Shown here: positions 491 through 25,013 of the stretch, in pieces | How the letters are laid out: every line of letters begins with the position of its first letter | How positions within the stretch are numbered: the first letter of the stretch is position 1 | DNA from: an uncultured Lachnospiraceae bacterium | GTDB lineage: Bacteria > Bacillota > Clostridia > Lachnospirales > Lachnospiraceae | Direction of reading: 5' to 3' | Length of the DNA stretch: 64,000 nucleotides | Assembly (NCBI GenBank): GCA_947176505.1 | Contig: CAMWQW010000003.1 | Location: forward strand, 62,001-126,000 | Notes under the pieces: model-generated | Database searches by the model: none | What the model saw: the letters and a program-made list of their open reading frames with translations, nothing else | Told to the model about the DNA's origin: nothing | Translations under genes and position numbers: made by a program

Positions 491-1009
491 CTACTCCTCC
501 TCGACGTCAATCTGAACCATAGTAATATCATCGTTATTAATTCCCATAATATAATACTCTTTTTCCTCTAAAATAGCAAACCCGCATTTGTGATACCACT
601 TAACTGCCGGATTATCCTTCAGCACATCGCACTTAATGCTTCGCTGGGGGAATTTTTCCCTGATATAGGATAGCATCAAATACATAGCGTCCCGCATGAA
701 TACTTTATGTTCACCCTCTTCTCCCCTGATGATGTTATATAGGTCGATGGCATCCTCTTCTTCTGTGCGGAACGCCATGCATCCAATCGGATGACCGTCT
801 TCTTCTATCACAAACATATAATCGTCTGTTCGCTCCTGATAGCCTTGAAACCACTTCAACTGCTGCTCCGGTTGAATCATCTCCTGATAAAAGAAGCTTG
901 TGCGATGATTATTCTTCCATGTCCTCAAATCCTCCTGATTGGCATCTGTGGCAGACACTAAGCTTAAGTATGGGAAACTTTCACACCTGATTGTAATCTT
1001 TTTATCCAT
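491..1009 (-). CDS. GNAT-family N-acetyltransferase (probably sugar N-acyltransferase)
   Basis: 172-residue GNAT-fold protein. Visible features are the central strand FVIEEDGHPIGCMAF, an acyl-CoA-binding region around residues 85-110, and the C-terminal NPAVKWYHKCGFAILEE segment (about 135-152) typical of motif B. A longer reading frame to 1087 would overlap the upstream glycosyltransferase; I chose ATG at 1009 because AGAGGAG lies 6 bases upstream and the protein then starts at a normal GNAT N-terminus. It lies 10 bases after the glycosyltransferase stop and 3 bases before the aminotransferase start, so the three are probably co-translated. By context it may acylate the amino-sugar made by that aminotransferase, but the acceptor is not shown by sequence. 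Confidence 0.85.
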   Translation of the reverse strand: MDKKITIRCESFPYLSLVSATDANQEDLRTWKNNHRTSFFYQEMIQPEQQLKWFQGYQERTDDYMFVIEEDGHPIGCMAFRTEEEDAIDLYNIIRGEEGEHKVFMRDAMYLMLSYIREKFPQRSIKCDVLKDNPAVKWYHKCGFAILEEKEYYIMGINNDDITMVQIDVEEE

Positions 1010-1019
1010 TCTTCTCCTC

Positions 1020-2048
1020 TTATACCCTCTGGCAGAATTGCAAAATCTGCTTTGCTCTTTTTCTTCCGAGTAGCAGATACACAACATATGCCATTATCGT
1101 CCTAAAGCGCTCTTTTGCGTCAACCGGATAGAATCTATCCAGCCTCCTGTTATTTTCTTCATAGAAAGGCAGGTCTGCCGATCCAACCGCCTCAAAGTCC
1201 TTGTGCTCATCAATCGGCTGCGCGGCATAATCATAATTTCTGGACGAAACCGGCTTATTTAAATCTATCTGTATATTTTCACAGTTCATCCCCGTTCCGT
1301 TGTAGCCGATATTCCTTGTCTTAGATACTTTCGGGAAAATAACATATTTATGGTTCATAAAGATATAAACGCTGAACGCCATATCCAGTTTGACAATCTC
1401 ATCATGCTGCACAAGCACAGGAATATACTCCAGCATACCTTTAACCAAATTGCAGAACTGATTACAACTCGCCTTATAAAACCGACGCATTTGAAACGGT
1501 CGGCGCATAATTTTTTCAAAATTGTGCATCGTGATATCACGATACATTTCTTCTTCTTTCTCTCTCCATGTGGCGTAACCCCACGCGGTATAATATGTGT
1601 TAATTTTAACGAGGTTCCTGTTATCCTCCATCCACCTAAAGGGATAAGAATAACCGCAGACTGCCTGTACACTCATATCCTTTTCATAAATCGCAAGATT
1701 TGCGTTCATGTACGCAAGAAAATTAGGAGATACCTCAATATCGTCTTCCAAATAAATGAATCTGTCATATTTCTCATAAAGCCTTTGCCTTACGGACACA
1801 AAATTATCATACCATCCTTTATTCTCCGTCTGTTTTATAAGATACACATTGGCAAAGCCGTCCACTCCTCTTTCCAAATATTCCAGTATCCTCCCATACC
1901 CTTCTCTGTGCGTATCCTTCAGTGGAAAATCTATGCCGATATACAGGTCTGTATATGCTGCATCAGAATTGTTACGCAGCGACTCTATACATCTGACCAG
2001 TTCCTCGAAACGGCATAAAGTTATAATCAATACCGGTGCATAGTTCAT
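1020..2048 (-). CDS. GT-A-fold glycosyltransferase (GT2/GNT-I-like)
   Basis: 342 residues, cytoplasmic. It starts APVLIITLCRFEELVRCIESL, a nucleotide-sugar-binding N-terminus resembling N-acetylglucosaminyltransferase-I-like enzymes, and has a DxD-type metal site in IYLEDDIEVSPNFL (about residues 98-111), followed by a hydrophobic acceptor region with YYTAWGYATWREK. ATG at 2048 has GGAG 8 bases upstream. There is no membrane anchor apart from a weakly hydrophobic segment near the C-terminus (AYVVYLLLGRKRAK), which may be an amphipathic membrane contact. It sits between the RGTD-motif transferase and the GNAT/aminotransferase pair, so it may add the amino-sugar or a neighbouring residue. Donor and linkage cannot be read. 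Confidence 0.82.
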   Translation of the reverse strand: MNYAPVLIITLCRFEELVRCIESLRNNSDAAYTDLYIGIDFPLKDTHREGYGRILEYLERGVDGFANVYLIKQTENKGWYDNFVSVRQRLYEKYDRFIYLEDDIEVSPNFLAYMNANLAIYEKDMSVQAVCGYSYPFRWMEDNRNLVKINTYYTAWGYATWREKEEEMYRDITMHNFEKIMRRPFQMRRFYKASCNQFCNLVKGMLEYIPVLVQHDEIVKLDMAFSVYIFMNHKYVIFPKVSKTRNIGYNGTGMNCENIQIDLNKPVSSRNYDYAAQPIDEHKDFEAVGSADLPFYEENNRRLDRFYPVDAKERFRTIMAYVVYLLLGRKRAKQILQFCQRV

Positions 2049-2139: not shown

Positions 2140-3177
2140 TTACTGATAATTGCCAAGCTGAAAAATATATACCTTTTCGTATCCGCCTTTCATTCTAAGC
2201 GCCCCTAGAGTTCCGTTAACCATAGGTGCAATCAATGCGTCACACTTTGAAAGGCAGTAGGTAGTAGACAGATAATCCATCATTTTTTCATACTTATACT
2301 CCGCACCATGACCTTGATTTATGACATCAAATAATCCTGTACTTCCTGTATTTTCAAAGCGGCTGCAATCATTAAATACCAATTCATCTTCAAAGTGCTC
2401 TTTGAGCCCCTGTAAAATCATCTCATCTTCTGTCGCCACAAAAATCGCATCATATTCTCCGATTTCTTCTTCCCATATCCCTCTCATTTCTTCTATCTTT
2501 TCAATTGTCATTTGAATCGAAGGCATTACCGCATGTCCAAAGGGTTTAAGCCCCAGATAGTCCGTGCCACGACATTTAACTCCCAAAATTCTTCTGCTGT
2601 CTCCTCGTATTCTTCTCCATTCACTTTCACATATTTTCTCAGCTTCTGGACATAACTTGATATACTTCGAAACAAGCGAGTGACTTTCCAAAATTTTGTC
2701 AGCATCTAATATCTCAGATAGCTGCCCGTCATACATACCATGACACAATACAACATTACGGCTATGATATACCTCCTCAAGTGTATATGGAAATGGTTGC
2801 AAGAAACAATATTCCCACCAATTAATCCTGCCAATTGTTTCCTTATCATTATAATAATAATTAGGATAATGCTTCATATCCACTATAGGAATCATTCCTC
2901 TTTCGATGGCAGTTCTAATATGCCCAACTACCAAGGCGTGCACCGCAAACAATCCAGCCATTCTATGTGGATCACGAATAACATAAAATACTTTGTCCGG
3001 ATTCAGATTACCAAAAGAAGCATGAAGCTCTCTCGAATTGCAAACCAAATACACCAACAAATTTCTGCATTTCTCCAAAAACCATAAATTACTATTCAGC
3101 CATTTCCATTTGATAATGTGATTATATACCTTAATGACTACTCCCGTCACTTTATGAAATACCATGCCATTTTGCAT
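2140..3177 (-). CDS. Putative glycosyltransferase with RGTD motif (fucosyltransferase-like)
   Basis: 345 residues, soluble. The key feature is GVKCRGTDYLGL (RGTDY at residues 203-207), which matches the H/KxRGTD nucleotide-sugar-binding motif of GT23/NodZ- and O-fucosyltransferase-like GT-B enzymes. The C-terminal part (IFVATEDEMILQGL, then YCLSKCDALIAPMVNGTLGALRM, ending YIFQLGNY) fits the donor-side Rossmann half of such enzymes. The histidine usually two residues before the first Arg is absent (Lys-Cys-Arg). The DNA looks more AT-rich than its neighbours, suggesting separate acquisition. It follows the glycosyltransferase/GNAT/aminotransferase group upstream of a heptose branch. The donor might be a GDP-sugar, but that is inference from the motif alone. 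Confidence 0.65.
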   Translation of the reverse strand: MQNGMVFHKVTGVVIKVYNHIIKWKWLNSNLWFLEKCRNLLVYLVCNSRELHASFGNLNPDKVFYVIRDPHRMAGLFAVHALVVGHIRTAIERGMIPIVDMKHYPNYYYNDKETIGRINWWEYCFLQPFPYTLEEVYHSRNVVLCHGMYDGQLSEILDADKILESHSLVSKYIKLCPEAEKICESEWRRIRGDSRRILGVKCRGTDYLGLKPFGHAVMPSIQMTIEKIEEMRGIWEEEIGEYDAIFVATEDEMILQGLKEHFEDELVFNDCSRFENTGSTGLFDVINQGHGAEYKYEKMMDYLSTTYCLSKCDALIAPMVNGTLGALRMKGGYEKVYIFQLGNYQ

Positions 3178-3192
3178 AATAGTGTGTCTCCC

Positions 3193-4647
3193 TCAACCGT
3201 TATTTTTATAGCATTCCACCACTTTCTCAATAATCTCCGTAGTAGACAAACCTTGTTCTAAATCGATAAACTGCATTTTCCCGCCGTATGACTCTATTAT
3301 CTCACGTTCAGGCATATATTTACCTTCCCAATCCCTTCCCTTCACCGCCACATCCGGCTTAAGCGCAGAAATCAACCTGCTCGGATTGTCGTCTTCCATC
3401 AGCACCACATAATCCACATACTTAAGCGCACTGACCATACGCATACGATTTTCTTCATCGATAATCGGTCTGCTTTCTCCTTTGATTCTCTTAACCGACG
3501 CATCACTGTTGACAGCCGCCACCAGAACATCCCCATACTGTCTTGCCTGTCTGAAGGAAGACAAATGTCCTGCGTGAAGCAGATCAAAACAGCCGTTAGT
3601 AAATACAATTGTTTTTCCTTGTTCCCTTACACCCCGAAGCTTCTGCTGTATCTCTTCTAAGGTCAATATTTTGTCTTTTGCACCGTTCTCCATTGCTTCA
3701 GCCAATTCTTGTACAGAAACACTGGCAGCTCCGAATTTGGAACATACGATTGCCGCCGCAGTATTAGCAAGTCTGCAGCTTTCCTGAAGCCCTGCGCCAA
3801 TAGCCATTGACGCCGCAATCATGGACACCACCGTATCTCCTGCACCGGTCACGTCAATTACTTCCTGCGCTTTGGTAGGGAAGTCTCTTCTCGCATTCTG
3901 TGCGTTCAAAAACATAATGCCTTTCTCCGACCTTGATATAATTAGGTTCTCGATTCCATCCCGGTTTTTCAATGTAAGACCGGCATTCTCCACATCTTCA
4001 TCGGTAATCAGCTTCATCCCCGTGGCAACAGCTAATTCTTTCTCATTCGGTTTACAGACTGTTGCACCTGCGTACTTGGCATAATCAACTCCCTTCGGAT
4101 CCACAACAACGGGGATTTTCTGTTGTATGCACATATTAATGATTCCCTGTGCAACGTCGTGTGTAACGTTCCCCTTTCCGTAATCCGACAAGATCACGGC
4201 ATCGATACCTTGCATAATGCTCTCCACACTGTTCAGTACCCGTTCCTCCATCGCCTTCTCAATATTCTCAGCCTTTTCCTCATCCAAACGGATAAACTGT
4301 TGGTTTCTGGAAGTAATGCGCGTTTTAATCACGGTCTGCAAACTGTCGACATTCTCAAAATATGTCGTATCGGCACCCATTTTTGAAAAGGTATCCGTCA
4401 GCCATAAACCTTCCTCATCGTTTCCGGTAAATCCTGCCACGCGTACCTTTACACCGAGCGCAAGCAGATTTGATACCACATTGCCTGCTCCCCCAAATTT
4501 TCTTTCCCTACCCGTAACATGCAGAACCGGAACAGGCGCCTCGGGGGAAATTCTATTGACCTCACCGTGAATATATTTATCCACCATAAAATCACCATAT
4601 ACTAATATTCTGACTTCTTTCATCTTATATAATTGTCTGCTGTCCAT
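3193..4647 (-). CDS. hldE: Bifunctional heptose kinase / heptose-1-phosphate adenylyltransferase
   Basis: 484 residues, close to the usual length of about 475. The N-terminal PfkB-type kinase phosphorylates D-glycero-D-manno-heptose 7-phosphate at C1: RISPEAPVPV (residues 32-41), FGGAGNVVSN, and the anion-hole and catalytic motif DVTGAGDT (265-272). The C-terminal cytidylyltransferase-like domain has FTNGCFDLLHAGH (349-361, HxGH), SDASVKRIKG and the STTEIIEK end, and forms ADP-heptose. I chose ATG at 4647 because GGGAG lies 6 bases upstream and the protein then aligns with known HldE starts; ATG at 4701 would add 18 unlikely residues. It follows gmhA and the GT9 gene, giving a heptose branch. 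GmhB and the HldD epimerase are not in the window. Confidence 0.95.
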   Translation of the reverse strand: MDSRQLYKMKEVRILVYGDFMVDKYIHGEVNRISPEAPVPVLHVTGRERKFGGAGNVVSNLLALGVKVRVAGFTGNDEEGLWLTDTFSKMGADTTYFENVDSLQTVIKTRITSRNQQFIRLDEEKAENIEKAMEERVLNSVESIMQGIDAVILSDYGKGNVTHDVAQGIINMCIQQKIPVVVDPKGVDYAKYAGATVCKPNEKELAVATGMKLITDEDVENAGLTLKNRDGIENLIISRSEKGIMFLNAQNARRDFPTKAQEVIDVTGAGDTVVSMIAASMAIGAGLQESCRLANTAAAIVCSKFGAASVSVQELAEAMENGAKDKILTLEEIQQKLRGVREQGKTIVFTNGCFDLLHAGHLSSFRQARQYGDVLVAAVNSDASVKRIKGESRPIIDEENRMRMVSALKYVDYVVLMEDDNPSRLISALKPDVAVKGRDWEGKYMPEREIIESYGGKMQFIDLEQGLSTTEIIEKVVECYKNNG

Positions 4648-4713
4648 CTCCTGCTCCCGTCTGTAACAAGTAAATCGTCTCATTTTGTGCGGCTTATACA
4701 TCTTTCGCCGCTT

Positions 4714-5292
4714 TTACATTTTTTGCTCCACCAGTTGACACAATGTATGTATCGTATGTTCATGTATCTCTTGAATACGAGCCGTTCTATCATGAGGTAC
4801 ACACAATACAATATCGCAAAGTTCTCTCATTCTTCCGCCGGTTTGTCCCGTCATACCGATTACTTTCATCTTCTTATCCCCAGCCATGTGCACGGCGCGA
4901 ACTATATTCTCTGAATTGCCGCTTGTAGAAATTGCAATAAAAATATCGTCTTCCGCCCCCAACGCTTGGATCTGTCTCTCATAAACTGCCTCAAAGCCAT
5001 AGTCATTACCACCCGCTGACAAGATGGAACTGTCCGTTGTCAGTGCCATTGCCGGATATCCTTCCCTGTCCTTCTCAAAGCGTACCACTAACTCCGCCGC
5101 CATATGCTGTGCGTCGGCTGCCGATCCGCCGTTACCGGCAATCAACACTTTATGCCCTGTCTGTATCGCATGCAATATACATTCTGCCGCTTCTATCATT
5201 TTGTCCGCATAATCCGTTTCCATGACACGTCTAAGAAGCTGCATCTGCTCTTTCATATTCTTCTCTATTATTTCCCGCATATTGATATCCAC
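4714..5292 (-). CDS. gmhA: Sedoheptulose-7-phosphate isomerase
   Basis: 192 residues, the normal length for GmhA. SIS-domain enzyme that converts sedoheptulose 7-phosphate to D-glycero-D-manno-heptose 7-phosphate in the cytoplasm. Visible are IAGNGGSAADAQHMAAELV (phosphate site plus the catalytic Glu), TTDSSILSAGGNDYGFE, the second SIS signature ISTSGNSENI, and the C-terminal IHEHTIHTLCQLVE with the catalytic His. The start is GTG at 5292, with AGGAG 7 bases upstream; the ATG at 5280 would leave that site 19 bases away. The site lies inside the end of the GT9 gene, 2 bases upstream, so translation is probably coupled. A DiaA-like role is less likely because hldE follows directly. Confidence 0.95.
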   Translation of the reverse strand: MDINMREIIEKNMKEQMQLLRRVMETDYADKMIEAAECILHAIQTGHKVLIAGNGGSAADAQHMAAELVVRFEKDREGYPAMALTTDSSILSAGGNDYGFEAVYERQIQALGAEDDIFIAISTSGNSENIVRAVHMAGDKKMKVIGMTGQTGGRMRELCDIVLCVPHDRTARIQEIHEHTIHTLCQLVEQKM

Positions 5293-5294
5293 AT

Positions 5295-6503
5295 CTATTC
5301 TCCTGCTCTATTGATTATTCCGCACATCTTTTGCTCTATCCTCTCCATCACATCATCTACCGTGACCGCATCCAGACATTTACGAATTCCATGTTCTCTG
5401 ATATACTGTCTGCATTCCGCCGTCTTGTCTACGCCATCCAGCAGGCAGTTCCTGCATTTCGTATCGTGATAGCATACTACAGGCAGATTTCTTCCTTCTG
5501 TCAACTCTACTTCGTACGGCAGAAATCTGCCATACTCCCATGGTCCCCAGATGCAGAATGCCTGCGTATTTACCGCCGCCGCAAAATGTACTGCGCTGGT
5601 ATCATTTGTAACAATAAATTCCGCGCCACGTATAATCTCTATCAATTCCAGAAGAGACGTCTCTCCCATTCTGTCAATAAGCATTTCTTTCGGAGCATAC
5701 CGTTTGGCAAATTTCTCTCCCAGATATGCCTCCTCTTTGCCGCCGCACAGACAGCACTTCAACTGTCCGTATTGTGCACTCTCATGTAATCGTTCGGCAA
5801 GTTCTGCGAAACGTTCAATCTGCCACATTCTTTCCGGTTCACTGGCTCCCGGAAACAAGACAAAATATTTATCCGACGGAACTTTGCCGCGCACCGTTTC
5901 CACCTCTTTGAATAACGGCACACCTGATTGTATTTCTCTTTTCACTATCTGCCTTGTAAAGAGTGCATTCCTGTGAATTTCCATGATATGATTTCTCGGC
6001 GTCACTACCACTTTCTGATAAATCGGTCCTGCCAACCGATAGGTAAAACGGGAGGTTATCGTCTCCGGAGAATCTATTGTAATTTTCTCATAAGCTGTCA
6101 CGGCGGACATGACCATATCCGAGAATATTTCTTTGGAATAAGTACATTGAATTGCCTGTCCGCCATGCACCCCTTGTAACAGGCGATGCATTGACCAACG
6201 ATACTTCACCTGTGACGTATGCCTAAGTTTCCCGTAATTGACTCCGATTATTTCATCAAAATAACCTGTATTACGCGCAATCTCACTACAGACCTGATTA
6301 CAAATCAATATCACCCTGCCGTCCAGCCCTTGTCTGAATTCTTTCGCAGCATCCAGCCACATAACGAAATCACCGATTGCATCGAGCCGTACCAAAACCA
6401 TATCATTACTCTGTACATCACTCCTTCGGTTACGCATCCTGATAATCAGCAAATCTGCCAATGATACGATGGCTACCAGCAGTGACTCTATACCCTTCTT
6501 CAT
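5295..6503 (-). CDS. GT9-family heptosyltransferase-like protein
   Basis: 402 residues, GT-B fold. Signatures are LVRLDAIGDFVMWL (residues 37-50, the acceptor-side motif of ADP-heptose:LPS heptosyltransferases), VLFPGASEPERMWQIERFAEL, and the donor-side FIVTNDTSAVHFAAAV. The C-terminus has several cysteines (CYHDTKCRNCLLDG, CRQYI, IRKC), more than usual. The N-terminal segment ESLLVAIVSLADLLI is hydrophobic and may associate with the membrane. It lies directly before gmhA and hldE, so ADP-heptose is the natural donor. In a Gram-positive cell the acceptor would be a cell-surface glycan rather than LPS. A stem-loop precedes its ribosome site (6522-6554). Confidence 0.9.
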   Translation of the reverse strand: MKKGIESLLVAIVSLADLLIIRMRNRRSDVQSNDMVLVRLDAIGDFVMWLDAAKEFRQGLDGRVILICNQVCSEIARNTGYFDEIIGVNYGKLRHTSQVKYRWSMHRLLQGVHGGQAIQCTYSKEIFSDMVMSAVTAYEKITIDSPETITSRFTYRLAGPIYQKVVVTPRNHIMEIHRNALFTRQIVKREIQSGVPLFKEVETVRGKVPSDKYFVLFPGASEPERMWQIERFAELAERLHESAQYGQLKCCLCGGKEEAYLGEKFAKRYAPKEMLIDRMGETSLLELIEIIRGAEFIVTNDTSAVHFAAAVNTQAFCIWGPWEYGRFLPYEVELTEGRNLPVVCYHDTKCRNCLLDGVDKTAECRQYIREHGIRKCLDAVTVDDVMERIEQKMCGIINRAGE

Positions 6504-6521: not shown

Positions 6522-6554
6522 TAATCGGCTCCCACTGCCTCCTGCAGCCGATTA
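6522..6554 (-). promoter_or_regulatory. 9-bp stem-loop covering a stop codon, just before the GT9 ribosome site
   Basis: Perfect inverted repeat TAATCGGCT (6522-6530) and AGCCGATTA (6546-6554) with a 15-base loop. On the transcript the 5' arm begins with the TAA stop of the GT2 gene. No run of U follows, so it is not a standard intrinsic terminator. It ends about 18 bases before the GT9 start, and may affect re-initiation or mRNA decay. Confidence 0.45.
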
Positions 6555-7325
6555 TCTGCGCATTCTGACAACAGCCTTCAAGGGTCGCATCAGATAATAC
6601 AACAACGGATAATGCTCCCTGATGCTTCTATCGTCCTCCGCGCGCATCCTATCCAGATTTGCTTTCTGCGAGCTGATTCCTGTCACACAGTCCACAACGC
6701 TGACATTCACGTCTACATACTGCATTCTGACATGTTCGCGGACGCAGCGCAGCAGGAAATCGAAATCCGCACAAATCCGGTAGGACTCGTCAAACCGAAG
6801 CTTTCTCATAATAGAAGTCTGCGCAAAAATCCCCTGATGACAGGGCATCTTTCCCATCATTAATAATTTGAACACCCTATGTTTCCCGGGATATTTTTCC
6901 GTGACGGTTTTATCCGCATATATTTTTGTGACATTTCCATATATAACATCCGGCAGTGGACTGCCGTCGTCGCATATCTGTGCCACCACATTCTCCACCG
7001 CATGTTTATCTACAAAGATATCACCGCTGTTTAGGAAAAGAATATAATCGCCGGAACACAAGTCTGTTCCCTTGTTCATAGCATTATAAATCCCGCTGTC
7101 CTTACTGGATACCGATTTTATTCCCGACTTACTTTCATACTCCCGGATAATCTCAAGCGTACCGTCCGTAGACATACCGTCAACAATCACATACTCCAGA
7201 TTATTGTAAGTCTGACCCAATACAGATTCTACTGTCTCTCTGATTGTGTCCGCCGTATTTAAACATACGGTAACTACCGAAATTCTGATTTTCTGCATTC
7301 TACTCACTTCTAACTTATCCGGCAT
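6552..7325 (-). CDS. GT2 glycosyltransferase (WcaA/colanic-acid type)
   Basis: 257 residues with a complete GT-A fold: ISVVTVCLNTADTIRETVESVLGQTY, VDGMSTDGTLEII, then DSGIYNAMNKGTDLCSGDYILFLNSGD (the metal-binding DxD position is replaced by NSGD, as is common in this subgroup) and MGKMPCHQGIFAQ. The DSGIYDAMNKG-type motif marks the WcaA-like branch. Start is uncertain: TTG at 7349, ATG at 7325 (GAGAGG 10 bases upstream, chosen) or ATG at 7298. It follows another GT2 and precedes the heptosyltransferase. No membrane segment. Donor unknown. Confidence 0.88.
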   Translation of the reverse strand: MPDKLEVSRMQKIRISVVTVCLNTADTIRETVESVLGQTYNNLEYVIVDGMSTDGTLEIIREYESKSGIKSVSSKDSGIYNAMNKGTDLCSGDYILFLNSGDIFVDKHAVENVVAQICDDGSPLPDVIYGNVTKIYADKTVTEKYPGKHRVFKLLMMGKMPCHQGIFAQTSIMRKLRFDESYRICADFDFLLRCVREHVRMQYVDVNVSVVDCVTGISSQKANLDRMRAEDDRSIREHYPLLYYLMRPLKAVVRMRR

Positions 7326-7363
7326 TTCCACGCCGCCTCTCACAATCAAATAATTCTTTACTT

Positions 7364-11381: not shown

Positions 11382-12908
11382 TTAATTTTCACTTACGCGT
11401 CCGCCGTCGCTTGTCTCTGCGACAAATTTCTCTATCAGCTCCGGCAACACCTTCGCAAGATCCGCAATATCAAACGAAATATTATGCAGCGCCTTCGCGT
11501 ATATCTTTACTTCCTTGGCAATCTCCCGACGCGGCTTCTTCATAATCTCCTCTACCGCCCGCTGACAGTCCTCCACCGTCCTCACCGGGAAAGTGAATGG
11601 CGCCATATTTTTGACGGAATACCCGAATGCAATGGCGGGCGCCCCGAAAAAATGACATTCCCACAATGCCGTACCAGTCAGGCAGGAAACCGCCAGCGCA
11701 TTCTTAATCAGTTCATAGGTACTGTATTCAATCGGTATCATCCTTACCTTTGGAATCGAAGCAATTTCTCTGTAATAGCCCTCCGTCCTAAGAAGCGATA
11801 GTTGTTCCGGATGAAGCTTCACATAAATCTTCACATCTTCCGGCAGCGCTTTACTCAAAATCTGAAGCGGTATCACTTGATCCGCATACATGCCGCCTCC
11901 CATCGGATTGGACGTTGCCTCCGGCTGGTACTGCAACGGAAAATAAATGTACTTTTCTCCCTCTGCCGGCATTGTAGTAAGCGTTTGATAATAGTTTCTC
12001 AGGCGCCTACTTTCCTTCTTAACCGGTCTTTCAAAGCAGTACCGCTTCCATGCCGCCGGTATCGCAGCAATGAGCGCCGGTATTTTCCGGAATGCGGCTG
12101 CGATAAACTTGAGACTCACACCGTACTTAGCGTAGTCCTCTCCCAGCACGCCCCGCCACACCCTGATAATATTGGTCTCCCCGAAACGCTGACGCAGCCG
12201 CCATACAAACGGATCTTTACGCATCTGTGCAGGCTTCATCTGTTCCGGTTCCTGTGACGACCATCTCTCAAACTGATTCTTAGTCTTACCCTCAAGCGGT
12301 ATATCTGCAATGTCCGCATCCCGATACTGTTCCAACAGCCTGTCATATTCCGCTTTCAGTTCCGGCGAGTCTTTCTCGAAATCTTTCAGCGCAAACCGTC
12401 TTGGCGGGATAAAGCAGCTATGCGTAAGCTGTACGGGAATATCAAGATATTTGCATAGATAATACAGCATATAATCATATCCCTCATGGGGAATCGCTGC
12501 CAGATAAACATGCGTAATCTGCTTTCTCTTTAAGAAATTATATAAGAAGAACAGATTATGTCTGTACACGGTATAATGAGTGTCAACGGTATCTCCGATG
12601 GGAAAACCCGGATAAGCCTCGAATCGTCTCTGTTGAAAAATAATGTCTAGGGCATACCGGTTCATATATTGAATGACATCATCTTCCAGCGGATAGCTGT
12701 GCTCCAAATCAAGTTGTTCCTCGCTATAGACACCGTGAACCAGATTCTTACGCAGTACGCACTCTCCAAACTGTTCAAAGATTGGCAGTTCGCTCTCCTG
12801 TGCCGCCAGCATATAGAGGTTATCCGGTTTTACTCTGTCCACGATACTCTGCACGATATCACTGTTAAATTCTTTCTGCACTACCAGACTAAGCAACAAA
12901 TTAACCAT
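11382..12908 (-). CDS. Capsule polysaccharide biosynthesis protein, KpsC/KpsS-like
   Basis: 508 residues, soluble. The C-terminal half shows the Capsule_synth signature: YIYFPLQYQPEATSNPMGG (about residues 317-335), QVIPLQILSKALPED, the VKLHPEQ motif (about 358-365) and a late SCLTGTALWECHFFGAPAIAFG stretch. In Gram-negative capsules this fold transfers Kdo to the lipid carrier. The N-terminal half is a less conserved GT-B-like domain with LAAIPHEGYDYMLYYLCKYLDIPVQL. It overlaps the end of the ABC flippase gene by 8 bases, pointing to coupled translation and a shared glycan. It could transfer a nonulosonic or Kdo-like sugar, or another donor; the sequence does not say which. Confidence 0.78.
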   Translation of the reverse strand: MVNLLLSLVVQKEFNSDIVQSIVDRVKPDNLYMLAAQESELPIFEQFGECVLRKNLVHGVYSEEQLDLEHSYPLEDDVIQYMNRYALDIIFQQRRFEAYPGFPIGDTVDTHYTVYRHNLFFLYNFLKRKQITHVYLAAIPHEGYDYMLYYLCKYLDIPVQLTHSCFIPPRRFALKDFEKDSPELKAEYDRLLEQYRDADIADIPLEGKTKNQFERWSSQEPEQMKPAQMRKDPFVWRLRQRFGETNIIRVWRGVLGEDYAKYGVSLKFIAAAFRKIPALIAAIPAAWKRYCFERPVKKESRRLRNYYQTLTTMPAEGEKYIYFPLQYQPEATSNPMGGGMYADQVIPLQILSKALPEDVKIYVKLHPEQLSLLRTEGYYREIASIPKVRMIPIEYSTYELIKNALAVSCLTGTALWECHFFGAPAIAFGYSVKNMAPFTFPVRTVEDCQRAVEEIMKKPRREIAKEVKIYAKALHNISFDIADLAKVLPELIEKFVAETSDGGRVSEN

Positions 12909-14712
12909 GATTGTTCTCCGACATATCCTTCTTTACGGCTTTGCCATCTGCAATCTCATAAACCTCGTCGCAGCTTTTGATGGTCGTCAGCCTGTGCGCC
13001 ACGATAATTAACGTCTTGTGTCCCTGCAGGGATTCAATCGCCTCCATCACGGCAGATTCCGTTTCATTATCCAGTGCAGAGGTCGCCTCATCCAGCACGA
13101 GAATCGCCGGATCATAATATAGCGCTCTGGCAATCGCCACACGCTGTCTCTGCCCACCGGAGAACTTCACTCCCCGCTCTCCTACGATTGTGTCAATCCC
13201 CTGCGGAAGACTCTCCACAAAAGTCTTAAGCTGCGCCTGCTGCAGCGCTTCCCATACGAGCGCATCGTCAATCTGCTCTTTCTCAATGCCAAATGCAACG
13301 TTATTCCTGATCGTATCATCCGTCAGATAAACACTCTGGGGCACATACCCGATGGTGCGACTCCATGTGACCGGTATCGACTTAATATCCATACCGTCCA
13401 TTTTGATTGCACCGGTTTCTGTGGGCAAAAGACCGAGAATCATATCGGCAAGCGTTGTCTTCCCAGCGCCGGACGCACCTACGAATCCAACGGCATGTCC
13501 TTTCGGAATGACCATATTCAGCCCTTCAATCACATACCCTTCTGCGTTCGGATATTTCCAGCTCACATTCTCCAATCGAATCTCGGAATGGAATGCGGGT
13601 ACATTCTCTGAAGATGTCCGTCCCTGCACCGCCTGTTCATCCTGTTCATCCATAACCGGCTCATTATTCTGCGCAAATTCCTTCGCCTCAAAAATGTTCT
13701 TGTACACGTCCCCTACCATTGTCTGATAGTAGACAATAACGTTATAATTATTCGTAATTTTACCCACAGACGGCAGAATCCGGAATGCCGCAATGGCAAA
13801 AGCCGCCGCGTTAGAGACAAATTCCGCACCGTTTACTCCTGTGAGGGACTTCACGCACAGCATCACGATAAATGCCGTAATACAGATTCCCTCAATCACA
13901 TACGCCGGACATTCGGAAGCAAAATTCTTCGCGGCATTTGACTTATTCTTGCCAGATACAGCCTCATCATAGCTCTCTGCGAAGAAAGCCTGTCTTCTGG
14001 TCACCATAACATCCTTTATACCGTTAAATGCCTCGTTTACCGCCTTTAAGCACAACTGACTGTAAGTGACCGCACGCTTTCCTTCCACCTTCATAATCTT
14101 ATGGAAAGTCGCTACAATCACCAGCAGCGCAAACATTGCAGAGACTGCCAGCACAATCGCCATGCCGAAATCCGTTGTCAATAGTACAATAATGATAAGC
14201 ACGGCGGACATGCTCTCCATAATAATCGTAAAGATACTCGCCATGGAAGCGGACACACCTGTAATATCATAGACGATACTTCTGAGCAGAACGGACGTAT
14301 TGGTATTGATGTGAAAAGTATACTCTCTGCTCAAATAAGAATTCATTAACCGCATGGAGATTTCCTTCTCCACTTTGCGGTAAAAATGATTCTTATAATA
14401 AGACAGAAACGACATATACACATTCTTGACAATATATACTGACACGGCACCCGCCGAAACCCACAGGACAAGTCCCGTCTCATCCTCCACACGAAGAAAC
14501 TGCCACAACCATTGCCACGACTGATTCTTAAGCATTGATTCCGGCAGTAAGATTACTTGAACAAGGGGTACAATAATAGACACCCCCAGCATTTCCAGTA
14601 AAGAGCCAATCAGCAGTAGAACGAACACGGCAATACTGCCTCTCCTCTGCTGTGGCGTATAAATATCATATATTCTCTTATAAGCGCCCTTAATCTGTTT
14701 TAAAATATTCAT
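12901..14712 (-). CDS. PglK/MsbA-type ABC transporter (lipid-linked oligosaccharide flippase)
   Basis: 603 residues, a half-transporter with the membrane domain (helices at about 30-55, 70-95, 130-200 and 250-280) fused to an ATPase. ATPase motifs: Walker A GASGAGKTTLADMILG, signature SGGQRQRVAIARALYY, Walker B AILVLDEATSALDNE and the H-loop IIVAHRLTTI. The N-terminal YDIYTPQQRRGSIAVFVLLLIGSLLEMLGVSIIVPL resembles the Campylobacter PglK group, which flips undecaprenyl-linked oligosaccharides. Start at ATG 14712 is chosen because AAGAGG lies 6 bases upstream and a promoter-like element ends upstream of it; ATG 14733 has no ribosome site. A second member of this family lies at 43650-45389. The substrate is not known. 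Confidence 0.9.
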   Translation of the reverse strand: MNILKQIKGAYKRIYDIYTPQQRRGSIAVFVLLLIGSLLEMLGVSIIVPLVQVILLPESMLKNQSWQWLWQFLRVEDETGLVLWVSAGAVSVYIVKNVYMSFLSYYKNHFYRKVEKEISMRLMNSYLSREYTFHINTNTSVLLRSIVYDITGVSASMASIFTIIMESMSAVLIIIVLLTTDFGMAIVLAVSAMFALLVIVATFHKIMKVEGKRAVTYSQLCLKAVNEAFNGIKDVMVTRRQAFFAESYDEAVSGKNKSNAAKNFASECPAYVIEGICITAFIVMLCVKSLTGVNGAEFVSNAAAFAIAAFRILPSVGKITNNYNVIVYYQTMVGDVYKNIFEAKEFAQNNEPVMDEQDEQAVQGRTSSENVPAFHSEIRLENVSWKYPNAEGYVIEGLNMVIPKGHAVGFVGASGAGKTTLADMILGLLPTETGAIKMDGMDIKSIPVTWSRTIGYVPQSVYLTDDTIRNNVAFGIEKEQIDDALVWEALQQAQLKTFVESLPQGIDTIVGERGVKFSGGQRQRVAIARALYYDPAILVLDEATSALDNETESAVMEAIESLQGHKTLIIVAHRLTTIKSCDEVYEIADGKAVKKDMSENNHG

Positions 14713-14735
14713 ATGCGTCCTCTTTATATCCATAT

Positions 14736-17886: not shown

Positions 17887-18870
17887 TTAGATATTATAAC
17901 AATCCACTTTATATTGATCCATATTGTCTCTGATCCATGCAATCGTCTGTGCAATGCCCTCCTCGAAAGTATACTCCATCTTCCAGTCAGTCAACTGCAT
18001 AATCTTCGTATTGTCGCCGAGGAGCCTGTTGACTTCACTCTTCTCCGGGCGCAGTCTCTCCTCGTCGCATATGATGCGCGCGGAAGGATTCAACTGTGCA
18101 ATAATTTCCTTCGCCAGATCGCCGATAGAAATCTCCCGCTTTGTGGCAATATTTATTTCTTCTCCGATTGTCTGATCGGACTGTGCAATGGCAATAAACC
18201 CATTCGCCGTATCTTTCACATAATTGAAATCTCTGGTCGGCGTAAGAGAACCCAATTTAATCTCCTCTTTGCCCGCCAGAAGCTGTGTGATAATCGTCGG
18301 AATAACAGCCCGTGCAGACTGTCTCGGTCCGTAGGTATTGAACGGACGCACAATGGAAATGGGCATCTGAAAACTCCGGTAAAAGCTTTCCGCCAGACGG
18401 TCCGCTCCTATCTTGGTTGCCGAATACGGCGACTGTCCCTGATAAGGGTGTTTTTCATCAATCGGTACATACTGTGCTGTTCCGTATACTTCAGAAGTGG
18501 ATGTAATCAGGACTCTGGAAGTCTCCAAATCCCTTGCCGCCTGCAGCACGTTCAACGTCCCCTTAATATTCGTATCCACATAAGAGTCCGGAGAATGGTA
18601 ACTGAACGGAATCGCAATAAGCGCCGCCAGATGAAACACTTCGTCTACGCCTTTCATCGCTGTGCGCACGCCGTTAGGGTCTCTGATATCCCCACTGAAT
18701 ATTTCCACATGTTTCATAATATCTTCCGGTAAAGTATCCAGCCATCCCCAGTTATTAAAAGAATTATAATAAGTAAAAGCCTTTACTTCATAGCCTTTCT
18801 TAACCAATGCTTCCGTCAAATGACTTCCGATAAAACCGTCGGACCCTGTCACCAATACCTTCTTGCCCAT
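17887..18870 (-). CDS. legB: GDP-GlcNAc 4,6-dehydratase (LegB-like short-chain dehydrogenase)
   Basis: 327 residues, typical for LegB (about 320-330). Extended SDR with the NAD motif GSDGFIGSHL (residues 9-18), TSTSEVYGTA, catalytic YSATK (Y149, K153) and RPFNTYGPRQSARAVIPTII. The sequence WGWLDTLPEDI and the long YVPIDEKHPYQGQSPYSATKIGADRLAESFY stretch fit the LegB/PglF-like branch acting on GDP-GlcNAc in legionaminic acid synthesis. Start ATG 18870 is preceded by GGAGAGAG; upstream in-frame ATGs at 18882 and 18921 lack a site. It lies 61 bases after ptmE, the enzyme that would make its GDP-linked substrate. A UDP-sugar substrate cannot be excluded from sequence alone. Confidence 0.88.
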   Translation of the reverse strand: MGKKVLVTGSDGFIGSHLTEALVKKGYEVKAFTYYNSFNNWGWLDTLPEDIMKHVEIFSGDIRDPNGVRTAMKGVDEVFHLAALIAIPFSYHSPDSYVDTNIKGTLNVLQAARDLETSRVLITSTSEVYGTAQYVPIDEKHPYQGQSPYSATKIGADRLAESFYRSFQMPISIVRPFNTYGPRQSARAVIPTIITQLLAGKEEIKLGSLTPTRDFNYVKDTANGFIAIAQSDQTIGEEINIATKREISIGDLAKEIIAQLNPSARIICDEERLRPEKSEVNRLLGDNTKIMQLTDWKMEYTFEEGIAQTIAWIRDNMDQYKVDCYNI

Positions 18871-18931
18871 AGCTCTCTCCATTTCTGCGCTGCGTACGCT
18901 GCACATTATTATTTCTGTCACTTATCACTCA

Positions 18932-19984
18932 CTACTGAAAGCCCATTTTCTTTCTCATGCTCTCCAGCTCATCCAACTGTCCCATATCCATCCAGTCGTC
19001 ATCGTCTATTAAAAACGCTCCGACCCGTTCCCCGTCCCCGATGCACTTCTCTATAATATCCGTAATATGGACAAACTCGCCATCCGGTATCCTATCAAGA
19101 AACTTCGGTTCAATCAGATAGAGTCCCGTATTTACGCGATACGCCAGTTCCGGTTTCTCCTGCAGCCCTACAATCTGCCCCGCTTCGTCTAATTGAACGG
19201 TTCCGTAGGGCACCTGAAATTTCTTTCTTGCGCAAACTACCGTAATAATATTTCCTGTGTTCCAATGATACTCTAGTATCTTGGCATAATCGGCTTCGAC
19301 CAGAATATCGCAATTTGACATAAAAAAGGTGCCCTTCACGGAATCTTTCAACAGTTTGAGTCCGCCGCCGGTTCCCATATATTCCTGCTCCTCTATGAAC
19401 TTAATCTCTTTACCTATCTCACTGTCGTTAAAATATGCTTTGATAAAGTCTTTTTTATAATTGACGATCATAGTAATATCCTTGCAGCCATACTCTGCAA
19501 AGTTCTCAACGATGTACTCTGTAATCGTCTTTTCCCCGATTGGGATAAGCGGTTTCGGTAAAATATCGGTATAGGGCTTTAGCCTCGTACCCTTGCCGCC
19601 TGCCATAATCACAAGCGGAACGCCAAGCTGCGGAACGTCCCTCTCCTGCCCTCTGTATTCCTCACGCCAGAAGCAGATATCAGTCAATTCATGTGCGGAA
19701 TTGACAATAGGTACCGCCGTAACATAGTATTTCTCCATCACGGCTCCCGCCGTATGTCTCCTGCTTTCATCCAGATAAACAGGATGGCAATTGGCAATCT
19801 CAGACACCTTTGCCGTCAGACTTCCCCCTGCAATGAGATGTCTTCTGATATCACCGTCCGTAACACAACCTTCCAGTATTTTGCCCTTACATACAAAGGC
19901 AATCCTCTTTCCGTTATGTCCGATTTTCTGCATCACGTCGATGATCGGCATCGTGCCCGTCACCGTAAATAATCCTAAATCCAT
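18932..19984 (-). CDS. ptmE: CBS-domain glucosamine-1-phosphate guanylyltransferase (PtmE-like)
   Basis: 350 residues with two parts: a tandem CBS regulatory domain (about 1-115) and a nucleotidyltransferase (about 120-350). The latter has MAGGKGTRLKPYTDILPKPL beginning at 127, VNYKKDFIKAYF, the metal site in SNCDILVEADYA, and a late DDDWMDMGQLDELESM. This CBS-plus-nucleotidyltransferase arrangement is known from Campylobacter PtmE, which makes GDP-GlcN for legionaminic acid. ATG at 19984 follows a strong GAGGAGAAGG site; a frame extending to 20023 adds a non-homologous leader. It is followed by legB. The regulatory ligand of the CBS pair is unknown. Confidence 0.88.
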   Translation of the reverse strand: MDLGLFTVTGTMPIIDVMQKIGHNGKRIAFVCKGKILEGCVTDGDIRRHLIAGGSLTAKVSEIANCHPVYLDESRRHTAGAVMEKYYVTAVPIVNSAHELTDICFWREEYRGQERDVPQLGVPLVIMAGGKGTRLKPYTDILPKPLIPIGEKTITEYIVENFAEYGCKDITMIVNYKKDFIKAYFNDSEIGKEIKFIEEQEYMGTGGGLKLLKDSVKGTFFMSNCDILVEADYAKILEYHWNTGNIITVVCARKKFQVPYGTVQLDEAGQIVGLQEKPELAYRVNTGLYLIEPKFLDRIPDGEFVHITDIIEKCIGDGERVGAFLIDDDDWMDMGQLDELESMRKKMGFQ

Positions 19985-20046
19985 CCTAACCCTTCTCCTC
20001 GCATCTGCAAACATAGCGGACACGCCGTACCGTTTTTCCGCTTTCG

Positions 20047-21546
20047 TCAGCCGGTACTGTCTATGACTGCCTCTATTTCATTTTTCATGTTTTCCAGTGC
20101 TTTTTCTTTCCAGAACACAGCTGCGTTCTCAGATGTGTCAGCACTCTCATGAATCAGCCGATACAGCTCTTGCGCGGAATCAAATGCCCCTGCATACCCC
20201 TGCTCACAAAGCGACAGCAGAAAAGAAACCGCCTTTTCTCTATAGATAAAAGTCTGTAAACCGAAATACAATCCCTCAAAAATAGCCGTGGAACTCAAGC
20301 CGCCAATCTGATAGGTACTGATTGCAAACAGATAATATAATTCCGTCTCATAGTTATCAATCACTTCAATTCCGGTCTTAGCCAATTCCGGATAATCTGT
20401 TTTCCAGCTGTCGTATTCTCCCGGATGCAGCTTATAGATAATGCGGTAAACATTCTTATCAATCTTCCGTTCTAATTCCACTGCAATGTCCGAAAGCTCT
20501 TTCCCTACCGGTTTCTGTGAAATAAATAGAATAATCTTCTTAGCATCTTTCTCTATTCCAAGAAACCTCTCAGCATTGCGCTCCAAATGCGGAAATCCCA
20601 CCGCTCTGCAATGATCCGGCGGTATTGGATAGCGCGCTTCCGTACACCAATATGGCGAAAAGGTAAAAAAATACTGTGGAAACTGTCTCACTGTAATGCC
20701 TTCCGGATAATTGTAGGCAGTGTGCTCCCTGCCCGTCACACCGTGCTGCAACTCGATCGTAGGTATATTTTGTGCGGCTGCCAATTCGTTGACAATCATG
20801 CAGTCTACATTATCCCCTACTACTTCGAGAATCGCTTTCGGCTGATACTTCTTAATCTCTGCGTCAAACAGTTCCTTTTTTCTTTGATACAGAAAATAAC
20901 CGTCGCTCATCATAGTTACAATTTCTTCAATATCGTAATCCACCTGCATGACCTGCGCTATTTCATCGCAAGCCGGTTTTATTTTCGTCCTAACCTGCTC
21001 CCGAATCCGCTCATAGCCATTCTTTAAAACTACTTTATGGAACAGCAGAGAAATTGTGGCAAGAACTTCTATTCTATCCGTATAGACCAGATTGTCGGTG
21101 CCGACCGGTCTAAGATGCTGTTGCTTATATGGACGCTCAAAAACGACAACATTAGAGAAACATTTCGCAATCTCATCCGTATAGATACAGTCAAAGCGGT
21201 CTCCGTTGCGAACTCTTCTCTCATGGTTAAACACCATGAGATCTGCATTGATTAAAGGTACGCTCTTATGAAACACCGCGTTCTTCATCATGCCGCATCG
21301 AAGCTTTAATCTTGCCCACGCAGACAAGCCGCTTACTTGATACGATGCCCCATAATGATCTTTATTTTCCAGCATTTTCGCCATAAACGCTTCTCTATGG
21401 AATATCCAGTAGGAAAATCCGTCTATATCGTCCTCCGGCAGATGATATTTCTCCTCTACCTGAAGCAGACAATTAATACAGTCTAAAGTATTCATACACT
21501 CCTTTGCGCCTCTGCCAATGTTGTCATTAAATATCACGACCGTCAC
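20047..21546 (-). CDS. Predicted GT-B-like glycosyltransferase of unknown specificity
   Basis: 499 residues, no signal or membrane segment. The C-terminal half carries IELQHGVTGREHTAYNYPEG, then IILFISQKPVGKELSDIAVELERKI, IIYKLHPGEYDSWK and the late IGGLSSTAIFEGLYFG, an order of motifs seen in Capsule_synth/CDP-glycerophosphotransferase-like GT-B enzymes. The N-terminal half I do not recognise. Start: GTG at 21546 overlaps the TGA of the upstream gene (4-base overlap); an alternative ATG at 21495 has AAAGGAG only 3 bases upstream. It lies between the nonulosonate genes, so a legionaminic acid transferase is a reasonable guess, but the donor is not established. Confidence 0.7.
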   Translation of the reverse strand: MTVVIFNDNIGRGAKECMNTLDCINCLLQVEEKYHLPEDDIDGFSYWIFHREAFMAKMLENKDHYGASYQVSGLSAWARLKLRCGMMKNAVFHKSVPLINADLMVFNHERRVRNGDRFDCIYTDEIAKCFSNVVVFERPYKQQHLRPVGTDNLVYTDRIEVLATISLLFHKVVLKNGYERIREQVRTKIKPACDEIAQVMQVDYDIEEIVTMMSDGYFLYQRKKELFDAEIKKYQPKAILEVVGDNVDCMIVNELAAAQNIPTIELQHGVTGREHTAYNYPEGITVRQFPQYFFTFSPYWCTEARYPIPPDHCRAVGFPHLERNAERFLGIEKDAKKIILFISQKPVGKELSDIAVELERKIDKNVYRIIYKLHPGEYDSWKTDYPELAKTGIEVIDNYETELYYLFAISTYQIGGLSSTAIFEGLYFGLQTFIYREKAVSFLLSLCEQGYAGAFDSAQELYRLIHESADTSENAAVFWKEKALENMKNEIEAVIDSTG

Positions 21547-22655
21547 ATCGGTCTGCTCGGTCTGTCCTGATCCGCATCCGCCTTAAAGAACGGATTATCC
21601 AATCCGCTCACCGTCTTATAAGCATAATCTAAGTCAATATTCTCTAAACAGAAAGGTTCAAAGTGATTAGGAACAACCGCTCCACTCTGTTCCTTGTCGA
21701 TAAAACCAGCTTGACGCAGCATTTCATCGTCCAGACCATGCTCCACAAAATCTATATATTCATAGTTTTCTTCCCTCAGCAGACGCCTGAAGCAATGCAG
21801 CATGCCGCACAGCTTCTCCTCCCCGCAGGTCATATCCATGATTCTAAGACATTTTCTTCCTTCACTCTCGCACACTCGCGTCGCCAATACACCCTGCACA
21901 TTACCATGCTCCTTAATACAGTACATTTCATAATGATAGATTGGATGGTGGAAAAAACGGTTTGTAAAATAATCTTTTGATTTATATCTGTTTATTCCCT
22001 CAAAGGCTTGTTCCGGAAGCGCAAGGAATTCCTGAAGAGTGCATCTTTCCAGACTCTTAGCAGAATTATCCGTATCGTATCCGTTTGTAAGCATACTCTG
22101 ATAGTCCTTTACCAAATGGAAATCTTCCATCGCATCATTCAGGATATAGTAGTGCTTCATCTTTCCGGCTCTAAAATTCCAATGCTTGTAAATACTAAGC
22201 GCAACGTCCGAAATTCCCAAGATTGATATCGTTTCAATCGGCAGTGTCGACTTCATATAGTAATATAAGCTGACACCCAGCCCTTTCACATTGATATCCG
22301 GTCTGGACTTCCAGATACACGGCCATACTTCCATTTTCTCTATCTTATCATCATACTGCGACGTCGGCACGAATCCCAGAATGGAATGGAAATCTCCGCT
22401 CTTTCTGTGCTGTGCCACAACGTAATTATATCTGTTATTCTTCCTGTCCAGATGCTGCCAGTCAAGCAAATCCGGGCGCAGAACAAAAATGTGGTTTTCG
22501 CGCCAGTATTTCCTTAAGAAGTCAACCAGCTGCTCTCTTTCGTCCGCCCTGCAGAATCGCAGTTCATAGTCTTCCTGCAGCTTTTCTATATAATCCTTGC
22601 CGTTTAACTCCGGTAAAATATCTTTCAAACTTGCACCCCATTTCTTCTTCACCAC
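21543..22655 (-). CDS. GNAT-like protein of unknown acceptor, fused tandem fold
   Basis: 370 residues. The N-terminal half (about 25-170) looks like a GNAT fold: LRFCRADEREQLVDFLRKYW, YNYVVAQHRKSGDFHSILGFVP, WPCIWKSRPDINVKGLGVSLYYYM and SILGISDVALSIYKHWNFRAGKMKHYYILN. The second half (about 200-340) appears to be a second related domain with YEMYCIKEHGNVQGVLATRVCE and YIDFVEHGLDDEMLRQAGF. The start is ambiguous (GTG at 22655 or the next GTG), and the ribosome site is weak. It overlaps the GT-B-like gene by 4 bases, a sign of functional pairing. I infer an N- or O-acyltransferase acting on the nonulosonic acid or its glycan; no closer assignment is possible. Confidence 0.65.
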   Translation of the reverse strand: MVKKKWGASLKDILPELNGKDYIEKLQEDYELRFCRADEREQLVDFLRKYWRENHIFVLRPDLLDWQHLDRKNNRYNYVVAQHRKSGDFHSILGFVPTSQYDDKIEKMEVWPCIWKSRPDINVKGLGVSLYYYMKSTLPIETISILGISDVALSIYKHWNFRAGKMKHYYILNDAMEDFHLVKDYQSMLTNGYDTDNSAKSLERCTLQEFLALPEQAFEGINRYKSKDYFTNRFFHHPIYHYEMYCIKEHGNVQGVLATRVCESEGRKCLRIMDMTCGEEKLCGMLHCFRRLLREENYEYIDFVEHGLDDEMLRQAGFIDKEQSGAVVPNHFEPFCLENIDLDYAYKTVSGLDNPFFKADADQDRPSRPM

Positions 22656-22682
22656 AAACTCACAGTCTTACCGCTCTCCGTC

Positions 22683-23639
22683 TTACAGAAAATTCAGATA
22701 ATTCTCACTCTTAGGCGGGAAATCAATTGTATCCAGTCTTGGCAGTTTAAACGGATTGTCCTTTTCCAAATCGACAATCTGCACATCGGTAGTCAATCCC
22801 ATCACGCAGCCAAGCTTCCTGATGCAGGCAATTACTTCATCACTGTAGGAGCCGCACGGATAATTAATAACCCATTTATTAGGATTTACAAGTTCTTTTA
22901 AGCAATCCAGTGCTCTCGTAATATCCTCTGTAAGCTGTTCTTCCGTCAACTGATTCATCCAATAATGATCATACCCGTGAACCCCGAAATACATGCCGCC
23001 CTTCTTCATCAGCATCATCTGATCATAATTTAAATAAAGCTCATGTGCCATAACAGTCTCCGGGACGCCAAGTACCTTCTCGAATAATTCGCTGGTGATC
23101 TTGTTCCTTAGCTGTTCGGGCAATACAAACTGTAATACCCGTTTAAAGAACTCCGTCTCCTTATCATTCAGCCGGTTCGCCACCATGTACCGTTCCATCA
23201 GTTCCTGATTGGAAGGATACTCCCATCCTTCACTGCGATACTTGTCCATCTGTGTCAAAAGTTCTTTGCAGAGCGTTTCTATGGGCGCCGCCGCCAAAAT
23301 AAAATGAATCTTATTAACGTCCAGCAACGTATGTTCCGTAAAAACTTTCGCCGGTATAAAGAAAGAACCCTGCATACCATATTCCAGCAGCATGGGATAA
23401 ACAAAAGTATAATGGTCGATATAGCCATCGTCAAAAGTTAACAGCAACGCGTTCTCCGGCAGTTCCTTCCCCTCTTCATAATAGGCTATGACGTCTTCCA
23501 TCGTCACAGGACAAAAACGCTGTGCAAAGAACTGCAACTGCTCTTTAAACAACTGATAGTCAAGACCTTTGATATCCGGATAGCGGCTATTCTTCAAATC
23601 TCTCACATAATGATACATTGCGATATATAACCGCTTCAT
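22683..23639 (-). CDS. Polysaccharide deacetylase (NodB/CE4 family)
   Basis: 318 residues. NodB signatures: TFDDGYIDHYTFVYPML (residues 68-84, catalytic base and metal Asp), then FFIPAKVF, the metal-binding His pair in FGVHGYDHYWMN (H-x3-H), and a late INYPCGSYSDEVI loop replacing the usual RxPxG. No signal peptide, so it may be cytoplasmic and act on a lipid-linked or nucleotide-linked intermediate. The spacing between motifs 1 and 2 is long (about 150 residues, helical insert). ATG at 23639 has AGGAGG 11 bases upstream. A good promoter candidate lies at 23679-23706, so this gene may begin a transcript. Confidence 0.88.
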   Translation of the reverse strand: MKRLYIAMYHYVRDLKNSRYPDIKGLDYQLFKEQLQFFAQRFCPVTMEDVIAYYEEGKELPENALLLTFDDGYIDHYTFVYPMLLEYGMQGSFFIPAKVFTEHTLLDVNKIHFILAAAPIETLCKELLTQMDKYRSEGWEYPSNQELMERYMVANRLNDKETEFFKRVLQFVLPEQLRNKITSELFEKVLGVPETVMAHELYLNYDQMMLMKKGGMYFGVHGYDHYWMNQLTEEQLTEDITRALDCLKELVNPNKWVINYPCGSYSDEVIACIRKLGCVMGLTTDVQIVDLEKDNPFKLPRLDTIDFPPKSENYLNFL

Positions 23640-23678
23640 AATTCTGTCTGCCTCCTCTTGTCTGCAAAAACTACACTC

Positions 23679-23706
23679 AGTATAACATACTGCGCGCTAA
23701 AATCAA
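23679..23706 (-). promoter_or_regulatory. Promoter candidate upstream of the deacetylase gene
   Basis: On the minus strand: -35 TTGATT (23706-23701), a 16-base spacer, then -10 TATACT (23684-23679) preceded by TGT, an extended -10. Four of six and five of six consensus matches. It sits in the 104-base gap, the largest here, about 40 bases before the ATG at 23639. Confidence 0.5.
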
Positions 23707-23712
23707 GTTACC

Positions 23713-23737: not shown

Positions 23738-23743
23738 TTCGTC

Positions 23744-24283: not shown

Positions 24284-24294
24284 ATCCCTTCTCC

Positions 24295-24996: not shown

Positions 24997-25013
24997 TCGT
25001 CAATCTCCTGTTC

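Follow-up and report, generated by a model that had tools for sequence, protein, structure and literature searches.

A predicted ADP-heptose module with a GT9 transferase in a surface-glycan region of a Lachnospiraceae genome

Heptose-nucleotide systems and the window locus

ADP-heptose (adenosine diphosphate heptose) is usually tied to Gram-negative bacteria, and it is sensed by the human immune system. We describe here three adjoining genes, for a glycosyltransferase of family GT9, the isomerase GmhA and the bifunctional enzyme HldE, in a stretch of 64,000 nucleotides (to be referred to as the window, within which their positions are counted) from an uncultured Lachnospiraceae bacterium. They are interpreted, with a probability of roughly 0.7, as a heptosylation module belonging to a surface-glycan locus, the host being a Bacillota member that has no LpxC; in this module, a D,D sugar would be used by the neighboring GT9.

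Several related systems have been described. Heptose nucleotides occur in both Gram-negatives and Gram-positives, for lipopolysaccharide (LPS) and for surface layers (PMC10269868), and enzymes of nucleoside diphosphate (NDP)-heptose synthesis are found across kingdoms (PMC11461863, PMC11573728). ADP-heptose is made in Streptomyces, where it serves for the small molecules septacidin and hygromycin B (PMC10221265). In Campylobacter jejuni, one GmhB, encoded in the ADP-heptose cluster, also serves the guanosine diphosphate (GDP)-heptose route (PMC10680097). The S-layer glycan of Aneurinibacillus contains heptose (PMC2943079). A study in Nature calls ADP-heptose Gram-negative-specific, and vancomycin, given to deplete Gram-positives, left the effect unchanged there (PMC12137129). 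Gram-positive ADP-heptose is already published, and the window locus represents a known pathway in variant form. No HldE-GT9 module in LPS-less Bacillota was found in the literature titles and abstract openings, a scope that leaves most subscription papers outside.

The LPS-core ADP-heptose system has GmhA, a bifunctional HldE and an adjoining transferase of the GT9 fold in common with the window. The window differs from it in its surface-polysaccharide region and in having gmhB outside the cluster; moreover, HldD and LpxC, both expected with the LPS-core ADP-L,D-heptose pathway, are without a match in the genome. In Streptomyces, the ADP-heptose genes are likewise those of a Gram-positive, but they lead to small molecules, whereas the window genes have a GT9 and other glycosyltransferases as neighbors. 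The C. jejuni capsule and the Aneurinibacillus S-layer are alike in carrying heptose in a surface glycan outside the LPS core. The pathway of the latter is of the GDP-heptose (HddA/HddC) type. In comparison, the window branch is of the HldE type, with a beta configuration and ADP, and not of the HddA/HddC type.

The three genes and their predicted enzymes

The genes are as follows.

5295..6503, minus strand: GT9 glycosyltransferase, predicted heptosyltransferase (PF01075, 74.4 bits; sole GT9 match of the genome; Foldseek)
4714..5292, minus strand: GmhA, sedoheptulose 7-phosphate isomerase (NF010546, 223.5 bits, and TIGR00441, 202.9 bits, both under cut-off; 1tk9, E 3.4e-51)
3193..4701, probable start 4647, minus strand: HldE, heptose 7-phosphate kinase and heptose 1-phosphate adenylyltransferase (TIGR02198 and TIGR02199, both over cut-off; tree)

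The three open reading frames (ORFs) adjoin one another on the minus strand from 3193 to 6503, in the direct succession that had been proposed from the letters of the window (the sequence-only reading). The gap between GT9 and gmhA is 2 bases by the ORF coordinates. The start codon of GmhA is GTG, preceded by AGGAG. For HldE, the ATG at 4647, which follows GGGAGCAGGAG, is a more probable start than 4701. All three frames are intact with their sequence motifs kept, and their G+C contents are 45.1-45.6%, as against 45.1% for the window.

The kinase and adenylyltransferase domains that the sequence-only reading had assigned to HldE are both recognized by their NCBIfam models, with 358.2 bits for rfaE_dom_I (cut-off 345) and 185.2 bits for rfaE_dom_II (cut-off 181.5). 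The next-best PfkB model gives 91.8 bits. In the promiscuity motif, which reads LEQGLSTT in HldE, a Leu is located at the position of the Arg, and ADP is therefore the expected nucleotide of the product. The cross-kingdom enzymes of Tang et al. 2024 (via PMC11461863, PMC11573728) are of the same two-domain kinase/nucleotidyltransferase type, and window HldE differs from them in this Leu. Nucleotide promiscuity of the STTR5 type was rejected for HldE because the Arg is absent; the exclusion is not strict, since the commentary in PMC11461863 does not hold the Arg to be strictly required for promiscuity.

For GmhA, the best-scoring families are GmhA models, with DiaA lower at 144.9 bits, and the closest solved relative, 1tk9, is named phosphoheptose isomerase 1. 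The stretches QHMAAEL and RIQEIHEHTIH align to solved phosphoheptose isomerases and to HldE-linked GmhAs. The His, Glu, Gln and His of the aligned active-site columns presumably form the zinc site. An identity of HldE and GmhA as non-heptose PfkB and SIS proteins was dropped, given the 358.2 versus 91.8 bits of HldE and the higher scores of the GmhA models over DiaA; the HldE tree, which has no PfkB outgroup, does not decide this point.

Two other GmhA-like proteins of the genome, GmhA2 (L017:7815-8405) and GmhA3 (L019:9145-9723), have Asp in place of Glu and Glu in place of Gln in the aligned active-site columns as compared to window GmhA, and GmhA3 additionally has Gln in place of a His. Because of these changes, their substrates may be other than that of window GmhA.

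The GT9 domain scores well above the PF01075 cut-off of 22 bits, and a search of the genome finds no second GT9. An AlphaFold2 model (mean pLDDT 81.9, built from 14 sequences) was compared to the Protein Data Bank with Foldseek. The top nine matches all belong to GT9: seven are chains of WaaF or WaaC and two come from a Veillonella enzyme, with 1psw at rank 1 (E 2.1e-15, TM score by target 0.76). A GD near the N-terminus and an NDTSxxH stretch are kept in all six of the aligned Bacillota GT9s. The heptosyltransferase TibC, which was solved with D,D ADP-heptose according to its entry title (4rb4), is found at rank 25, and the window GT9 model is nearer to WaaC/WaaF.

It is possible, though unlikely, that ADP-heptose is made here while GT9 moves another sugar, the heptose going instead to protein heptosylation or to a small molecule. 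The window GT9 scores far under the curated models for LPS heptosyltransferases I, II and III (52.9, 49.4 and 25.8 bits against cut-offs of 185.3, 134.6 and 170.2), which speaks for this alternative and weighs against the heptosylation module. Also against the module, GT9 enzymes may take other sugar donors, and the identity of the window GT9 to WaaF in the fold search is 16%. The alternative is further favored by the presence of TibC, whose ligand was ADP-D-beta-D-heptose, among the fold matches, and by the use of ADP-heptose for small molecules in Streptomyces (PMC10221265). The weak scores against the LPS models are to be expected if the acceptor of GT9 is not lipid A. Against the alternative, the only GT9 of the genome is the one located 2 bases from gmhA, its best fold matches are the GT9 enzymes listed above, and a GT9 domain adjoins hldE or is one gene off in all six loci of the window HldE clade (see below).

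The missing steps and the other heptose genes of the genome

Neither gmhB nor hldD was seen in the window by the sequence-only reading, and this holds: the window has two matches to the heptose epimerase model, at 53.7 and 53.4 bits, far below the cut-off of 274.6 bits, and GmhB matches lie elsewhere in the genome. Of the alternatives offered there, both genes lying elsewhere or an unepimerised D,D form with an unlinked phosphatase, candidates for GmhB are indeed located elsewhere. For HldD, the whole genome has 14 short-chain dehydrogenase/reductase (SDR) matches, the best at 121.5 bits, and none over the cut-off. In comparison, eight chosen SDRs located near HldE in Bacillota relatives all pass the same cut-off, with 395-414 bits. 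Since HldD passes nowhere in the genome, the product is likely to be the D,D form, which would be used as is.

For GmhB, the search finds a candidate on contig C17 (135.8 bits), a second (122.4 bits) on C3, the contig of the window, and a weak third (21.5 bits). In the C3 candidate, which lies some 29 kb ahead of the window, GmhB follows a sugar nucleotidyltransferase domain within one fused protein. In the GmhB tree, for which, as for the GmhA tree, rows were removed by length filters, this fused GmhB groups with HddA-linked GmhBs (99, FastTree), presumably of the alpha type, and the C17 protein is on a long branch, unplaced and not clearly of either type.

In the heptosylation module as we propose it, the kinase domain of HldE would produce the beta-1,7-bisphosphate, and a GmhB from elsewhere in the genome (the C3 fusion or the C17 protein) would strip the 7-phosphate. 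The D,D sugar would then be used unepimerised by the neighboring GT9, and the heptose would be joined to a glycan made by the many glycosyltransferases of the region. Such borrowing of GmhB is plausible because a single GmhB serves two heptose routes in C. jejuni. As gmhB is in the same locus in four of the six loci of the window clade, the window locus probably came to borrow this step, and it probably does so from elsewhere in the genome.

A less likely alternative, to be considered improbable overall, is that the pathway is held up because a beta-acting GmhB is lacking, and yields mainly heptose 1,7-bisphosphate, or that the locus is a decaying acquisition. It would account for a window locus that has no gmhB although most loci of its clade do, and for the scores of the genome's own GmhB candidates, both of which are under the cut-off of 149.6 bits and one of which is of the HddA-linked type; these scores and this grouping also count against the module. 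On the other hand, the three frames are intact and keep their motifs, the second GmhB (on C17) cannot be clearly assigned to either type, and the C. jejuni enzyme shows that one GmhB can be enough.

Contig C3 also carries a second, GDP-heptose-like cluster, some 24-30 kb ahead of the window.

L017:7815-13740: GmhA2, nucleotidyltransferase-GmhB fusion, FkbM methyltransferase, SDR, acyltransferase and HddA-like kinase

With GmhA2, the kinase and the fusion, this cluster is similar to those of the C. jejuni capsule and the Aneurinibacillus S-layer. The heptose-specific cut-offs are missed throughout, with 171 bits for HddA (cut-off 600) and 92.8 bits for HddC (cut-off 300). The kinase scores best with the HddA family; for the nucleotidyltransferase domain, mannose-1-phosphate guanylyltransferase (135.5 bits, cut-off 440) and MurU (123.9 bits, cut-off 250) outscore HddC. 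Of 196 genomes of the order, 18 have HddA-like kinases, in no case over the cut-off. The genome thus probably carries heptose sets of both the ADP and the GDP type.

A third set is located on contig C17. The protein at L019:17311-18858 has the HldE domains in reverse order, a nucleotidyltransferase (96.8 bits) followed by a PfkB kinase (114.3 bits), both under their cut-offs, and lies near GmhA3 and a GmhB. It keeps HxGH and GAGD. The kinase stretch RISPEAPVPV is not kept, and its sugar may therefore be a different one.

Recurrence of the module, its host and its surroundings

The full-length HldE model (NF008454) has matches in three of 61 near relatives, namely the genome itself, another from its genus and one further member of the order. 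Among genomes drawn from the order it matches 15 of 392 (12 full-length, the own genome included), and in the phylum sample 41 of 398, many of these with the kinase part only. The HldE tree has 97 rows, the window and 96 loci, all of which were kept; it was built with a quick method and has SH-aLRT support values, no bootstrap and a midpoint root. Split, truncated or kinase-only loci (L033-L035, L040-L064, L077) were left out.

Window HldE is located in a clade of six Bacillota rows with L066, L078, L065, L079 and L080 (SH-aLRT 96), to which Desulfomonile is the sister (98). Many of the neighboring HldEs in the tree have GmhA or GmhB nearby. The phylogeny that the sequence-only reading had called for places window HldE among the HldEs of heptose loci, in a tree that holds no other PfkB proteins as an outgroup. 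Eight of the ten other HldEs of the order are in a second group, together with L039 of the phylum sample.

In the six loci of the window clade, gmhA is present in five and gmhB in four. L079 has both about 5 kb off, and the locus of L065 is cut by the contig end. In L080 (7099-10023), a 974-residue fusion of GT2 and GT9 is located between GmhA and HldE. The G+C contents of the six loci range from 25 to 61%, which suggests that the module moved between lineages. Outside this clade, L075 (genome G194) has an HddA-like kinase and a nucleotidyltransferase-GmhB fusion beside HldE, GmhA and GmhB, such that both heptose routes are in one locus.

HldD is over its cut-off in seven of 19 genomes: none of the six of the window clade, five of the eight of the second group, and G425 and G166, both outside the tree. 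LpxC, the Lpx marker searched, has no match in the window genome, in any of the 12 genomes of the order with full-length HldE, or in any of 17 assemblies, of which 14 belong to the order and three are named metagenome-assembled genomes (MAGs). It is present in all three phylum-level HldE carriers examined, including G627, the source of L039.

The host is a member of the Bacillota. Its genome, of 4.17 Mb and with a rated completeness of 100% and contamination of 1.97%, has a Spo0A_C match (E 3.7e-47), with a second on contig C3 itself (E 2.0e-37); among 14 control genomes, Bacillus subtilis alone has a match. Spo0A_C is found in 13 of 20 genomes searched, and in five of the six of the window HldE clade (G375 has none). 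The Gram-positive host assumed by the sequence-only reading is borne out by Spo0A and by the lack of an LpxC match. A Gram-negative contaminant as the origin of the contig is very improbable. In its favor, LPS synthesis is where these genes are best known, and a Desulfomonile HldE is nearest to the clade. Against it, Spo0A_C lies on the same contig, the G+C of the genes matches that of the window, the assembly has a rated contamination of 1.97%, and the five other clade assemblies, all Bacillota, also have hldE together with a GT9.

Some further findings count against the heptosylation module. GmhA is under its equivalog cut-offs of 209.45 bits (TIGR00441) and 276 bits (NF010546), and HldE gives 488.8 bits with the full-length model (cut-off 521). 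The second Bacillota group of HldEs is not purely LPS-less, as L039 shows, and absences in G820-G822 weigh less, these being MAGs of unstated completeness. In favor of the module, 12 of 13 loci of the order with a full-length HldE have a GT9 over cut-off within about 7 kb, a figure that stands without a background rate for GT9. The candidates for this count came from a PSI-BLAST search with the window GT9, followed by a Pfam scan of part of the neighbors; in the exception, L072, one candidate was scanned and the contig ends about 1.2 kb past hldE.

The central proposal of the sequence-only reading, an ADP-heptose branch, is nonetheless supported by the HldE domains, the active-site residues of GmhA, the heptosyltransferase fold of GT9 and the HldE tree. 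Judged from these sequence features, the branch is real and probably working. More tentatively, and with somewhat less than even odds, the loci may represent a separate HldE-GT9 lineage in Bacillota without LpxC, in which epimerase-free ADP-D,D-heptose would be made for a surface glycan, beside a GDP-heptose route and a third, odd kinase/transferase set, and which would supply ALPK1 agonist from beyond the Gram-negatives. If so, this would be a well-defined example of heptose being used with neither LPS nor HldD, and if such organisms make and release ADP-heptose, the sources of ALPK1 agonists would need recounting. The unchanged effect under vancomycin (PMC12137129) speaks against such a recount.

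Other genes of the region are as follows.

6552..7349, minus strand: GT2 glycosyltransferase (PF00535), next gene upstream in the same gene run
2140..3177, minus strand: downstream protein of the same gene run, family unassigned (no Pfam or NCBIfam match)
1020..2048, minus strand: putative glycosyltransferase (GNT-I match under cut-off, 23.5 of 25.4 bits)
491..1087, minus strand: GNAT acetyltransferase, weakly PseH-like (PF13302 and PF00583; PseH 40.3 bits, far under 93.1)
12901..14733, minus strand: PglK/MsbA-like ABC exporter, candidate glycan flippase (NF050066, 309.4 bits, under the cut-off of 1000)

In addition, a set for a nonulosonic (legionaminic-like) acid is found at 17887-27184, with LegB, NeuC and NeuB over their cut-offs and a PseF-like cytidylyltransferase under its own. 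A sugar phosphotransferase near the window end gives 286.2 bits (cut-off 295.55). Because LegB, NeuB and NeuC, this phosphotransferase and the PglK-like exporter are all in the window, the heptose product most likely belongs to a surface glycan of the polyprenol-linked kind.

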